Assembly: GCA_903862655.1 (NCBI GenBank)
Contig: CAIOZA010000019.1
Location: forward strand, 70,960-134,959
Source: an uncultured Ignavibacteria bacterium
GTDB lineage: Bacteria > Bacteroidota > Ignavibacteria > Kapaibacteriales > UBA2268
Length of the DNA: 64,000 bases
Direction: 5' to 3'
The notes under the pieces were generated by a model. The model worked only from the letters and a program-made list of their open reading frames with translations. It made no database searches and was not told where the DNA came from. This document shows, one piece after another, positions 16,800 to 64,000 of the stretch. Position 1 is the stretch's first letter; each line of letters begins with the position of its first letter. Made by a program: the position numbers and the translations under genes.

Positions 16800-16906
16800 T
16801 AGTCATTCTGAAAGACCGCTGCGACTGAAGTGCCGAAAGCCTGCGACGCGCATCCAGACCGTTTTTCAGCAAATACATAGATTCCTCACTTTGTTCGGAA
16901 TGACTA
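16800..16906. repeat. Dispersed intergenic element with terminal inverted repeats
   Basis: A 107-bp element directly after the ATP-grasp stop codon. Its ends are 13-bp inverted repeats (16800-16812 tagtcattctgaa; 16894-16906 ttcggaatgacta) with one mismatch that would be a G-U pair in RNA. The right end contains the motif attcctcact..gttcggaatga, which recurs at 18878-18903 and 18913-18938 and in degraded form near 59639. It has no credible coding content. Confidence 0.75.
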
Positions 16907-16961: not shown

Positions 16962-17948
16962 ATGGAATCAAGAAGAGATTTTCTGAAAACATCTGCGATA
17001 GCAACAATCGGTGTGGCTATTCCTGCATCATTATTATCACAGAAGAAGACTGGTCAATCGAAAAAGAGTAAGGCTAAGAATAATTATCCGATTGTAGTAT
17101 CAACATGGAATCATGGCGTACCTGCAAACAAAGCTGCCTGGGAAGTTCTGAGTACGGGAGGTTATGCATTGGATGCTGTCGAGCAGGGGGTTCATGTTCC
17201 TGAGGCTGATCCCGAAGTATCGAGTGTCGGTTATGGAGGCTTCCCTGACAGGGATGGACATGTCACATTAGATGCTTGTATAATTGATGAAAAAGGCAAC
17301 TGCGGATCTGTGGCTTTTCTTGAGAATATAATGCATCCGATTTCTGTGGCAAGAATGGTACTGGAAAAAACCCCTCATGTGATGCTGGTTGGTGATGGTG
17401 CTTATAAATTTGCCAGAGAGCATGGCTTCCCGAAAGAAGATTTGCTGACAAAGAATGCAAAGGAAGCATGGGCGAAATGGATACTGGAGAACAAATACAA
17501 GCCTATTGATTTCAATAATCATGATACTATCGGCATGCTGGCAATTGACAGCAAAGGTCAAATGTGCGGTGCATGCACAACTTCAGGACTTGCATGGAAG
17601 ATACATGGCCGTGTCGGGGACTCCCCTATCATCGGTGCAGGACTTTATGTTGACAATGAAGTTGGCGGAGCAACGGCTACAGGCAAAGGCGAATCAGTAA
17701 TCAAGATTGCAGGATCATTCCTGATTGTGGAACTGATGAGGCAGGGAATGTCTCCGAAGGAAGCCTGCAAGACTGCCGTTGAAAGAATAATCCGTAAACA
17801 GCCTGATTATAAGGATTTTCAGGTTGGGTTCATAGCGATGACCATGCAGGGTGAGTATGGATATTATTCTTTGCAAAAGGGATTTGAAGTTGCCGTTCAC
17901 GATAAGGATGGAAGCAAGTTGTTGAGTTCGGAATATGCGAGCAAATAA
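16962..17948 (+). CDS. Glycosylasparaginase (N4-(beta-N-acetylglucosaminyl)-L-asparaginase), Tat-exported
   Basis: 328 residues. A twin-arginine signal (SRRDFLKTSAIATIGVAIPA) directs export. The mature part is an N-terminal nucleophile hydrolase: NHDTIGMLAID holds Thr189, the expected autocleavage site and catalytic nucleophile, followed by GRVGDSPIIGAGLYVDNEVG and ATGKGE. The family cleaves the GlcNAc-Asn link of glycoasparagines. The ATG at 16962 is preceded by aaggtg. Codon choice looks more G+C-rich than in flanking genes, and repeat elements bracket the gene (16800-16906 and 17949-18951), so recent acquisition or rearrangement is possible. Confidence 0.88.
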   Translation: MESRRDFLKTSAIATIGVAIPASLLSQKKTGQSKKSKAKNNYPIVVSTWNHGVPANKAAWEVLSTGGYALDAVEQGVHVPEADPEVSSVGYGGFPDRDGHVTLDACIIDEKGNCGSVAFLENIMHPISVARMVLEKTPHVMLVGDGAYKFAREHGFPKEDLLTKNAKEAWAKWILENKYKPIDFNNHDTIGMLAIDSKGQMCGACTTSGLAWKIHGRVGDSPIIGAGLYVDNEVGGATATGKGESVIKIAGSFLIVELMRQGMSPKEACKTAVERIIRKQPDYKDFQVGFIAMTMQGEYGYYSLQKGFEVAVHDKDGSKLLSSEYASK

Positions 17949-18218: not shown

Positions 18219-18638
18219 AAATTCAAATTGCACTTTTGCATCATTTTTTGCATCTTTTGCACTATTTTAATGAACAATTAGTTATGTAAAACATCCGTAA
18301 CCTATTTATTTTTCAACCATCTTGTTTTTGTATTTGCACTTTTTGCATCAATTGCATAGCTTTTTTTATTTTTCAAATATTCATTAAAAAATACAATTTC
18401 ACAGAGAACCACAGAGTATTGATTTTCTCTGTGTGGCTCTTGTATTCCTCTGTGTAACTCTGTGTAATTATATAAATCGTAAAGAGAACCATAGAGAAAA
18501 GAAAGAAATAAGGTTTTCAGAAATACAGAATTTCCCTCACCCTGCCCTCTCCGACAATCGGAGAAGGAATTTAATACAATGCAATTTGCGAAATAGGGGA
18601 TGATATTACAAAGAAACGATTTTTAAAGGAAATAAAAA

Positions 18639-18857
18639 CTATATTTTTAGAAATTTACTAACTTTATCGCCAATCCTGACATAGTACATCCCCGAAGCCA
18701 AGCCGGAGATATCTACTCGTAGGGGTTCAAGATTTTGCATCCCTACAGAGAATACAGTTTGTCCGAAAATATTAATTATCTTCACTTCGCTTGTTTCGGA
18801 CACGGCACGCCGTGTCCCTACGTGAAAAAACGAGAAGGGCGGGTTTGTAACCCGCCC
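18639..18857 (-). pseudogene. Orphan type IX secretion C-terminal sorting-domain remnant
   Basis: Minus-strand reading is open for about 72 codons and ends at a TAG (18641-18639) with VDISGLASGMYYVRIGDK then VSKFLKI, preceded by SEVKIINIFGQTVFSVG. This is the last 50 residues of a type IX (Por) type A sorting domain; compare the end of the gene at 62609, IDISSFNKGIYFVRIGDR. There is no start codon and a TAA lies just upstream (18860-18858). The N-terminal 20 residues are translations of palindromic repeats (18798-18817, 18835-18859), so no cargo domain remains. Most likely the decayed tail of a lost secreted-protein gene. Confidence 0.75.
18798..18817. repeat. Palindromic repeat, 9-bp arms
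   Basis: ggacacggc-ac-gccgtgtcc, perfect arms with a 2-nt loop. G+C-rich in an AT-rich context and located in frame within the sorting-domain remnant. Confidence 0.8.
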
Positions 18858-18859
18858 TT
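18835..18859. repeat. Palindromic repeat, 11-bp arms
   Basis: Perfect arms aagggcgggtt (18835-18845) and its complement (18849-18859) with a 3-nt loop. The motif is not followed by a T run, so it reads as a REP-like element rather than a terminator. Confidence 0.8.
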
Positions 18860-18877
18860 ACAGGGGATACATATACA

Positions 18878-18938
18878 TAGATTCCTCACTACGTTCGGAA
18901 TGAAAGTTGAGCTAGATTCCTCACTACGTTCGGAATGA
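18878..18938. repeat. Two direct copies of a 26-bp dispersed repeat
   Basis: Identical 26-mers at 18878-18903 and 18913-18938 (tagattcctcactacgttc followed by ggaatga), 35 bp apart. Each has a short internal attcc/ggaat palindrome. They match the right end of the element at 16800-16906, which has tt for ac at one place. Confidence 0.85.
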
Positions 18939-18951
18939 CATATATAGAATT

Positions 18952-20649
18952 TTATTTATAGAAATTACGGACTTTTTCTACAATGTCTGTTATATTGACA
19001 ACTCCGCGTTCGTTGGTGGCTCTGATTTTGAATTCGATCTGACCGTTATCGATGTTCTTTTTGCCGCCGATTATCTGGATTGGAATTCCGATCAAATCAG
19101 CATCATTGAATTTGATTCCGGGCGATTCATCTCTGTCGTCGAAGAGGACGTCAAATCCAGCATCAGTCAGTTCTTTATAGAGATCCTCGCATGCTTGCTG
19201 TACTTCGGGTGATCTGAGTAAATTCAAACCCAGGAGATGAACATGATAAGGTGTGAGAGCTTTGTTCCAGATTATACCTTTATCGTCAAATCCCTGCTCG
19301 AGATAACATGCCATAACTCTTTCGACTCCGATACCGTAAGAGCCCATGATAATTGGCTTTTCGACACCTTCAGCATCGAGGATGTTAGCATGCAAAGCTG
19401 TGGAATACTTTGTTCCGAGCTTGAAGATATGACCTAGTTCGATAGCTTTGACAACGCGGATAGGACTTCCGTTGATAGGGCAGGGTTCGCCTTCGCAGAT
19501 TGTTCTGAAATCGTGATATTCATCGATTTTGCAATCTCTGGAGAAGTCAATATTTTTGAAATGGAATCCATCTTTGTTTGCTCCGGAAACGAGACCGTTT
19601 GCATCTTTCAGAAGATTATCGGCTACAATTTTTATTTTTGTTTTAAGATTGATGGGACCGATTGAGCCGGTATGAGCCCCTGTGATCTCGAACAATTCTT
19701 CTGCTTCGGCAGGTCTGAACTGATTTGTCTTGAAGACAGATTCGAGTTTTGATTCGTTCAGCTCATCATTACCGCGCATAAGGATCAGCACAGGTTCAGA
19801 ATTAACCATGTATACAACAGATTTGGCTAATTGATTTTCTGTTAAACTGAATTGATTTTTCAGATCATTGATTGTTTTTGCACTTGGTGTTGCGAATTCT
19901 TCTATTGCATTGGTGGAATCAATTCTTCCAACTCCCGGGAGTGCAGAAGTTGCCACTTCGAGATTAGCGGCATATCCGGAATCGGAAACAGCGCACACGT
20001 CTTCACCTGCATCTGATTCTACCATAAATTCCTGGGATGCACTGCCACCCATTGCTCCGCTGGACGCACCAACGATGAAGAACTTCAAACCACATCTTTC
20101 GAAAATCCGGCAATAAGCATCATAATGTTTTTGATAACTTACATCCAAACCTTCGACAGTAGAATCCATTGAGTAAGCATCCTTCATTAAGAACTGTCTG
20201 CCTCTCAGGACACCGGATTTCGGTCTGGGTTCATTTCTGAATTTTGTCTGAATCTGGTACCAGATCTGAGGAAGATCGCGATAGGATTGAATGTGCTGAC
20301 GAGCATGATATGTAATTATCTCTTCGTGAGTCGGAGCAAGGACAAGACCTTCACGGTTCTTGATGTGGAACATAACGTCACCCATAGCTTCCACCCTACC
20401 TGTTTGCTCCCATATTTCGATAGGATTCAAAGCTGGGAGAAGGAACTCCTGACCACCGATAGCATCCATTTCATCACGAAGAATGTTCATTATTTTTTTT
20501 AAGACTATATGACCCAGAGGAAGCCATGAAAATATACCTGCCGCCAACTGTCTGACAAGTCCTGATCTGAGCATTAGCCTATGAGAAGGTATGATTGCAT
20601 CCGCAGGAACTTCCTTGAGTGTTGGAATAAAATATTTGGATTGTCGCAT
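18952..20649 (-). CDS. proS: Prolyl-tRNA synthetase (bacterial type)
   Basis: 565 residues, the usual length of bacterial-type ProRS with the editing insertion. Class II motif 1 is near GQEFLLPALNPIEIWEQTGR, motif 2 in FRNEPRPKSGVLRGRQFLMK, and motif 3 in GSYGIGVERVMA. Between motifs 2 and 3 (about 225-385) lies the YbaK-like INS domain, which normally hydrolyses Ala-tRNA(Pro). The C-terminal anticodon-binding domain starts near TPYHVHLLGLNL. It charges tRNA(Pro) with proline. It follows holA by 69 nt and may be the last gene of a murI-holA-proS transcript. Confidence 0.95.
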   Translation of the reverse strand: MRQSKYFIPTLKEVPADAIIPSHRLMLRSGLVRQLAAGIFSWLPLGHIVLKKIMNILRDEMDAIGGQEFLLPALNPIEIWEQTGRVEAMGDVMFHIKNREGLVLAPTHEEIITYHARQHIQSYRDLPQIWYQIQTKFRNEPRPKSGVLRGRQFLMKDAYSMDSTVEGLDVSYQKHYDAYCRIFERCGLKFFIVGASSGAMGGSASQEFMVESDAGEDVCAVSDSGYAANLEVATSALPGVGRIDSTNAIEEFATPSAKTINDLKNQFSLTENQLAKSVVYMVNSEPVLILMRGNDELNESKLESVFKTNQFRPAEAEELFEITGAHTGSIGPINLKTKIKIVADNLLKDANGLVSGANKDGFHFKNIDFSRDCKIDEYHDFRTICEGEPCPINGSPIRVVKAIELGHIFKLGTKYSTALHANILDAEGVEKPIIMGSYGIGVERVMACYLEQGFDDKGIIWNKALTPYHVHLLGLNLLRSPEVQQACEDLYKELTDAGFDVLFDDRDESPGIKFNDADLIGIPIQIIGGKKNIDNGQIEFKIRATNERGVVNITDIVEKVRNFYK

Positions 20650-62608: not shown

Positions 62609-64000
62609 TCAAAGCTTAAAAAACTTCTGTACTCTATCCCCAATCCTTACAAAGTAAATTCCTTTATTAAAACTTGAAATATCAATTTTAAGGGATTCAA
62701 GATATTTAATTTGTACGTCAAATACGGTTTCTCCCAAAATATTACTGATTCGTATATTTTGGTTTGCGAATTCATTTCTATGTTTAAAGTCGATGTTTGA
62801 TATTTCAACTAAATCAGAACTTGGATTAGGGAAAATATTAAAATAAAAACCTTTAGAATTGTTTTCACCAACATCAGTGTATGTAAAGAAAACTGAGTCT
62901 GAGATGCGACTAAAACAACCTGTATTTACTTCTTTTATTTGTGTCTGGTAATATCCTGTAACTCTAGGATAAATCATATCAGAAGTAGAATCTAATAATA
63001 TATTTCCATTAAAATACCACTGATTTCCAAGAGCATAAGATGATATTAACCGATCCTTCGATAAAGTAATATATGGTTGATTCGGCAATTTATTAATTTT
63101 AATTTTTACAGAATCCTTCATTAAACTTGAACAACCAGATATTGAATTCGTTGCTATAACATGATAAATTCCTTTTTCTTTGATAAGTCCAAAATCAATG
63201 TTAATACCAGTTCCAAGAATCCAATTCCCTAATTTGTTGCTGTCTTGATAGAGTTGATAGGTCATATTGATTTCCGATCCGGTCAATCCGATGATTAAAC
63301 CACTATCACCTTCGCAATAAGTACCACCACCAGCCATTTTATATACTTGCGGTAATGCGAATACAGTTATTGAGTCAAGGTTTTGATACGCAAAATATCT
63401 ATAATTCATTGTACCGATTTTAATAAGATACCCTTTTCCTGATGATGTTGTTTGAGGAATAAACGCTTTGATTGTGTAATCTTTATAATCGAATACGATA
63501 TCGAGTGTATCAGGATCAGAGAAACTGCCATATTTATCAGATAATATAGCATTAAAAATTACACCCCCACCAAAATTGCCTTTTAAATGAAAATTTATTG
63601 ACATTGTATCACCTTGGCAGATTTTATTATCCGATAAGCTATGTACAAAAATTTCATTTATATCTGACAAATAGACTCCTCTGGCAATAGTACCACAGTA
63701 AAATTTTGAGTCCTCTATTAATAAAGTAGTAATTACACTATCTCTTAATACATATTCTTTCAATCCTGAATTAACATAACTCCATAAGTATCTACTCTTT
63801 AATGAGCAATAAATACCACCACCATTTGTTCCTGCAAATATTAAACTATCTGATACTGCTATACTCGAAATATCTTTTTTGATTTGATTTGAGCCAATAG
63901 AAATCCAATTTCCACCTAGATCTGATGAATGAAATATTTCACCTCCTTTTGTTCCAGCATATATATCATTACCTTTAACTGCAAAACAAAGGATATTTTT
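62609..64000 (-). CDS. Type IX-secreted propeller/Ig-like protein, C-terminal part (cut by window edge)
   Basis: The frame is open from 64000 to the stop at 62609, about 463 residues; the N-terminus lies outside. Propeller-like units are AGTKGGEIFHSSDLGGNW, FAGTNGGGIYCS and FYCGTIARGVYLS. An Ig-like domain follows (AGGGTYCEGDSGLIIGLTGS, then GIYHVIATNSISGCSSL). The last 85 residues are a type IX type A sorting domain (NIFPNPSSDLVEISNID, NIRISNILGETVFDV, LKIDISSFNKGIYFVRIGDR). It is probably exported to the cell surface. Its tail is very close to the orphan remnant at 18639. Confidence 0.85.
   Translation of the reverse strand, partial: KNILCFAVKGNDIYAGTKGGEIFHSSDLGGNWISIGSNQIKKDISSIAVSDSLIFAGTNGGGIYCSLKSRYLWSYVNSGLKEYVLRDSVITTLLIEDSKFYCGTIARGVYLSDINEIFVHSLSDNKICQGDTMSINFHLKGNFGGGVIFNAILSDKYGSFSDPDTLDIVFDYKDYTIKAFIPQTTSSGKGYLIKIGTMNYRYFAYQNLDSITVFALPQVYKMAGGGTYCEGDSGLIIGLTGSEINMTYQLYQDSNKLGNWILGTGINIDFGLIKEKGIYHVIATNSISGCSSLMKDSVKIKINKLPNQPYITLSKDRLISSYALGNQWYFNGNILLDSTSDMIYPRVTGYYQTQIKEVNTGCFSRISDSVFFTYTDVGENNSKGFYFNIFPNPSSDLVEISNIDFKHRNEFANQNIRISNILGETVFDVQIKYLESLKIDISSFNKGIYFVRIGDRVQKFFKL

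Follow-up and report, generated by a model that had tools for sequence, protein, structure and literature searches.

The window, a stretch of 64,000 nucleotides from an uncultured Ignavibacteria bacterium, contains about 1 kb made up mostly of dispersed repeats, with proS (18952-20649, minus strand) on one side and a gene ending at 17948 on the other. In this region lies an open frame of the minus strand (18639..18857), consisting of 72 codons, read from 18857 to 18642 as GRVTNPPFSFFHVGTRRAVSETSEVKIINIFGQTVFSVGMQNLEPLRVDISGLASGMYYVRIGDKVSKFLKI, and a TAG stop at 18639-18641. The frame encodes a truncated T9SS type A sorting tail, preceded by residues derived from repeats. In profile searches the tail scored 27.9 bits against TIGR04183 (cut-off 23) and 32.8 bits against PF18962 (cut-off 27); intact tails, for comparison, gave 34-48 bits, above the family cut-offs. 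An earlier note on this DNA had read a full sorting tail here. The tail itself was recovered, but alignment with intact tails showed that strands s1-s2 (PNPxxDFIEIS) are missing, which leaves the seven-strand domain incomplete. No ATG, GTG or TTG was found in the frame ahead of codon 19, and the first possible start, the GTG at this codon, falls inside a palindrome (p1, below). The tails of intact cargos are C-terminal on a secreted protein, whereas none is attached to this one. With half a tail and no start codon ahead of it, the orphan is most likely not a working gene.

Strands s5-s7 of the sorting domain (VDISGLASGMYYVRIGDKVSKFLKI, 18642..18716) and s3-s4 (VKIINIFGQTVF, 18750..18785), both on the minus strand, were assigned from the alignment and from predicted strands. 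The s4-s5 loop between them, hereafter site B, is occupied by a palindrome at 18719..18746 (minus strand, GTAGGGATGCAAAATCTTGAACCCCTAC), read as VGMQNLEPL, and the same kind is present in the intact cargo tails t00, t45, t47 and t51. The s2-s3 loop, or site A, holds p1 (18798..18821, minus strand, GTAGGGACACGGCGTGCCGTGTCC), whose core GGACACGGCACGCCGTGTCC covers 18798-18817, whose GTAG tag extends to 18821, and which is read as VGTRRAVS. Both p1 and the site B element consist of a palindromic stem with GTAG at one end. Further out is p2 (18835..18861, minus strand), with core AAGGGCGGGTTTGTAACCCGCCCTT at 18835-18859 and a tag that is GTAA in the window copy and GTAG in other copies. The residues ahead of the tail were thus correctly described in the earlier note as translations of two palindromes, p1 and p2, although the third, at site B, had been taken for ordinary tail. 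Their positions were also right, and they are not chance palindromes: at up to 3 mismatches, p1 was found at 14 places in the genome and p2 at 19, against 0 for either reversed control.

Beyond p2 are two copies of the dispersed repeat p3 (GATTCCTCACTACGTTCGGAATGA, plus strand, 18880-18903 and 18915-18938), part of the same intergenic cluster; a further copy (GATTCCTCAC..GTTCGGAATGA) lies between genes at 16880-16903 of the window. On the other side, the 3′ flank (18245..18638, minus strand) is held in common with the intact cargo gene at C139:49750 and, over shorter lengths, with those at C95:45116, C47 and C86:9044 (C numbers denote contigs of this genome). It includes another palindromic repeat, p4 (CCCTCTCCGACAATCGGAGAAGG, 18538..18570, plus strand), similar, as judged by eye only, to the TPTLSTSGEG kind of site B insert. 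A dispersed repeat of about 275 nt with CACAGAG stretches covers 18224-18500 of the window, and copies 75-85% identical to it were seen on C12, C7, C139, C55, C119 and elsewhere. A scan of the window against Rfam gave no match.

Alignments within the genome revealed that the two halves of the locus have different relatives. Left of p1 and through it, the window matches intergenic copies on C114, C122 and C95, which share a layout of p2, a spacer of about 17 nt and p1, with p3 beyond p2 in the closest copy (C114). The p2-p1 spacing is 39-40 nt and alike at C95:53332, C114:1599 and C122:10109. Right of p1, the match is to the intact C139:49750 cargo; it runs through the remaining tail and the stop and takes in about 400 nt of 3′ flank, where C139 has an additional segment of about 150 nt. 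Between C139 and C86, co-linearity extends across tail and flank. The switch from intergenic repeat to cargo tail falls within the 24-nt palindrome p1. A more decayed join with the same layout (p3-p2-p1-tail) was found at C119:28740-28970.

Because the p2-p1 composite is found between genes as well and the junction lies within p1, we take p1 to be the usual loop insert of such a tail and p2 to be in frame by accident. On the sequence evidence, VGTRRAVSE reads as a normal site A insert for these tails, and the residues GRVTNPPFSFFH as a chance translation of the intergenic repeat. The suggestion that both palindromes had inserted into a former coding region is not supported, since the composite is also intergenic at C95:53332 and on C114 and C122. 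The broader claim, that the orphan derives from a cargo tail as its remnant or its copy, is supported by the C139:49750 match right of p1. The gene at 62609, earlier thought to have a very close tail, shares 52% identity over 48 residues and ranks 26th among the tails compared; several others, at 62-70%, are closer to the orphan tail.

As the matches on the left and on the right differ, we conclude that the orphan is most likely what remains of a cargo gene, joined in p1 to an intergenic repeat, and thus ordinary debris, and that it probably arose by recombination within p1. A possible but weaker alternative is that a tail was copied into an intergenic repeat cluster and never formed part of a cargo gene at this place. 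The second join with the p3-p2-p1-tail layout at C119 and the scatter of some 20 short tail pieces through the genome would agree with such a copy, but the 3′ flank is co-linear with intact cargos for about 400 nt, and deletion of a cargo body is an equally simple account. It is very improbable that the assembly wrongly joined two loci sharing p1. The junction does fall exactly within a repeat, and several of the assembled contigs end in tails; against this, the shared stretch is just about 24 nt, below read length, a comparable join exists on C119, and the wider pattern recurs in a genome of 3.9 Mb assembled in 6 contigs (G032).

Of 85 related tails that were gathered, 57 are preceded by 150 residues or more, and these were searched for hairpins with stems of at least 8. 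Strong hairpins in these 57 intact cargos numbered 29 at site A, 19 at site B and 1 in the rest of the tail region, meaning that 48 of 49 sit at the s2-s3 or the s4-s5 loop. Cargo bodies contained 17 in 69 kb, or 0.25 per kb, against 21-32 per kb at the tail peaks. Such hairpins were absent from the 30 top-scoring TIGR04183 tails, which without two members of the subfamily studied here left 28 tails of other subfamilies as the control. At least 5 kinds of insert were distinguished at site A and at least 7 at site B. Palindromes within intact cargo genes, a check proposed by the earlier note, are therefore present: besides the two-loop pattern, the intact tails at C47, C139:49750, C147 and C95:43673 each contain p1 or a variant of it. 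The same-subfamily tails t31, t32, t33 and t36, also of intact cargos, have no insert.

Intact tails are C-terminal and have the expected strand order. A fold was predicted for one tail with inserts (mean pLDDT 72); in it, site A is flanked by strands 15-19 and 31-36, and site B by strands 41-46 and 54-58. By strand order, the counterparts of the two sites in the RgpB CTD, whose strands and loops have been described (PMC4804311), would be its s2-s3 and s4-s5 loops. The genome also encodes a component of the T9SS translocon, an SprA with a TIGR04189 match of 881 bits (C114:44428-50571); a second, partial SprA match, at a contig end (C139:3-509), reached 61 bits and is below cut-off.

The tail subfamily was found in all 54 genomes searched of the same bacterial family. 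In five other genera, 60 tails taken from eight genomes showed the same two peaks, with palindromes of other sequence, and single examples from four more genera were similar. Hairpins are missing from some tails, among them the one sampled in genome G033 and the majority of those in G017. In the genome G032 a single palindrome is read within a sorting tail at 10 of its 10 places, one of these being an orphan.

We then considered how palindromes and tails are distributed as DNA. Tails make up about 0.9% of the genome, which serves as a yardstick for the following counts. The VGANGRSPL palindrome lies in tails at 26 of 27 places (1 outside) and the VGAIHELPL palindrome at 9 of 9; for p2 the figures are 12 of 19 in tails and 7 outside, and for p1, 5 of 14 and 9 outside. 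Freely moving REPs would be expected to scatter, and the bias towards tails fits palindromes that are passengers of the tail. As p1 and p2 are also widespread between genes, some of the inserts may be independent insertions.

The tails themselves share more than their inserts. Cargos with unrelated bodies match in tail DNA, often over the whole stretch between the PNP motif and the stop and in some cases past it; of the 35 pairs whose 3′ flanks begin alike, 33 have bodies that are unrelated or non-comparable. Codon agreement between tails is 0.56, compared with 0.43 expected from codon usage. (Global alignment gave unrelated bodies identities of about 74%; free gaps inflate these values, which were left out.) Groups with the same 3′ flank differ in their inserts at A and B, and t56 and t36, with body DNA 76% identical, differ in both. 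The kinds of insert at A and B are associated in part (permutation p 0.002, 43 tails); as the association is partial, copying of whole tails is not the sole process. These observations fit a picture in which tails have been copied and recombined between cargo genes, with the palindromes carried along.

The reading that we hold to be probable combines both parts: the orphan is the 3′ remnant or copy of a cargo gene, joined at p1, and it belongs to a palindrome-bearing tail subfamily spread chiefly by tail copying. Palindromes would insert into either loop, where some 6-15 extra residues may be tolerated by the domain and where the frame starting with GTA would run through the palindrome without a stop. 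First entry was presumably by REP-type transposition, as the GTAG ends and the Y1 transposases of the genome suggest (cf. PMC3733652); the position and recurrence of the inserts point to loops that carry them at little cost. Multiplication would then proceed mainly by tail copying or recombination between cargo genes, and not by fresh insertion each time. The same traffic, together with deletions, could leave orphan pieces such as the one in the window, where the cargo body and the first tail strands would have been lost and the remnant joined within p1 to the intergenic p2-p1 repeat.

Repeated, targeted insertion would also produce inserts at two fixed sites. A RAYT-type (Y1) transposase would place GTAG palindromes into a preferred DNA target in the loops, and most tails would have been invaded independently. 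The genome does contain 14 matches to Y1 transposases (PF01797), and one such gene (C6:82403-82792, locus L184) has p2 just upstream and a second p2-like palindrome in frame within it (IRAGLESAPT). The presence of several kinds of palindrome at two sites in one genome, and of other kinds in other genera, also suits this explanation. We nevertheless consider it unlikely: the two commonest tail palindromes are nearly absent outside tails, unlike free REPs, none was found in same-genome tails of other subfamilies, and several kinds of insert have no GTAG tag. Selection for the inserts, whose peptides or DNA/RNA hairpins would have a function, for example in translocon recognition or mRNA stability, might likewise explain why they recur at these two sites across many genes and genera. 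We regard this as quite improbable, because intact cargos with insert-free tails of the same subfamily exist and the peptides are wholly different between kinds. Moreover, in the 27 copies of the main kind, VGANGRSPL, all changes are one-sided and there is no compensatory pair, which makes a kept hairpin unlikely, and we rejected it for that kind; VGAIHELPL gave two compensatory cases among 10 copies. A further idea is that palindromes and tail form a recombining cassette, with the loop palindromes as crossover points by which whole tails or parts of tails move from one cargo gene to another and into intergenic DNA. We give it a low probability; if true, a selfish repeat would be driving the spread and reshuffling of a secretion signal.

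Palindromes read in frame within genes are already known. The GTAG-tagged REPs described by Di Nocera et al. (2013, PMC3733652) resemble those reported here: they are 20-30-nt palindromes with a GTAG end, single or paired, some of them in frame within genes, and they occur in genomes with Y1/RAYT transposases. GTAG-tagged REPs lie mostly between genes; here the share outside tails ranges from 9 of 14 places for p1 to 0 of 9 for VGAIHELPL. The present repeats differ in that their copies within genes gather in two loops of a single domain family, over dozens of genes, that several kinds are nearly confined to the sorting domain, and that some have no GTAG. Rickettsia palindromic elements (RPEs), to which the earlier note had likened the repeats, are palindromic DNA in frame in functional-looking genes, where they give the protein a short extra peptide at a place that its fold can accommodate (PMC3733652). 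The likeness, drawn from their description, is borne out by the in-frame palindromes of intact cargo tails; however, RPEs are reported from many unrelated proteins, whereas here one export tail is both host and carrier. The tails differ from the T9SS type A domain as defined by TIGR04183 and PF18962 in having peptides encoded by repeats that extend the s2-s3 and s4-s5 loops, and in sharing more DNA than conservation of the protein would require; the window copy has neither s1-s2 nor cargo. In the openly licensed literature we found no report of palindromes concentrated in the loops of T9SS tails, or spreading with the tail, and the two-loop concentration appears to be new.

The export tag seems to offer short palindromic repeats a safe harbour in dozens of genes. 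In Porphyromonas the sorting tail is cut off after export (PMC4804311), and if the same is true here the cost of carrying an insert would be low. The family offers a natural replicated experiment on the entry of repeats into coding DNA, on the tolerance of loops and on the movement of a secretion signal between genes. A word of caution follows for annotation: where predicted secreted proteins contain peptides like VGAIHELPL or VGANGRSPL, these derive from repeats.

Orphan tail pieces elsewhere in the genome were also inspected. A general tendency of such pieces to break at palindromes was not supported, 3 of 19 having a G+C-rich hairpin near site B. About 8 pieces follow an intact tail of their own strand at a distance of 0.1-0.8 kb (loci L097, L099, L100, L105, L106, L108 and L110). 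Insertion of a 3′ cassette that displaced the old tail downstream was considered for these and not retained: just three share upstream sequence, and tandem cargo arrays with deletions explain them equally well. At L106 (C126:2925-3807) and L100 (C28:7701-8706), the cargos end in another type of tail (IYFxIIKS...KFxI), and a piece of the usual type (FVRVG...KFVK) follows after 0.5-0.8 kb, an arrangement that looks like replacement of the 3′ end. Finally, several contigs start or end at a sorting tail (C9:58, C48:58, C31:157, C34:104, C76:34219 and C20:77), which suggests that the repeated tails probably break the assembly.
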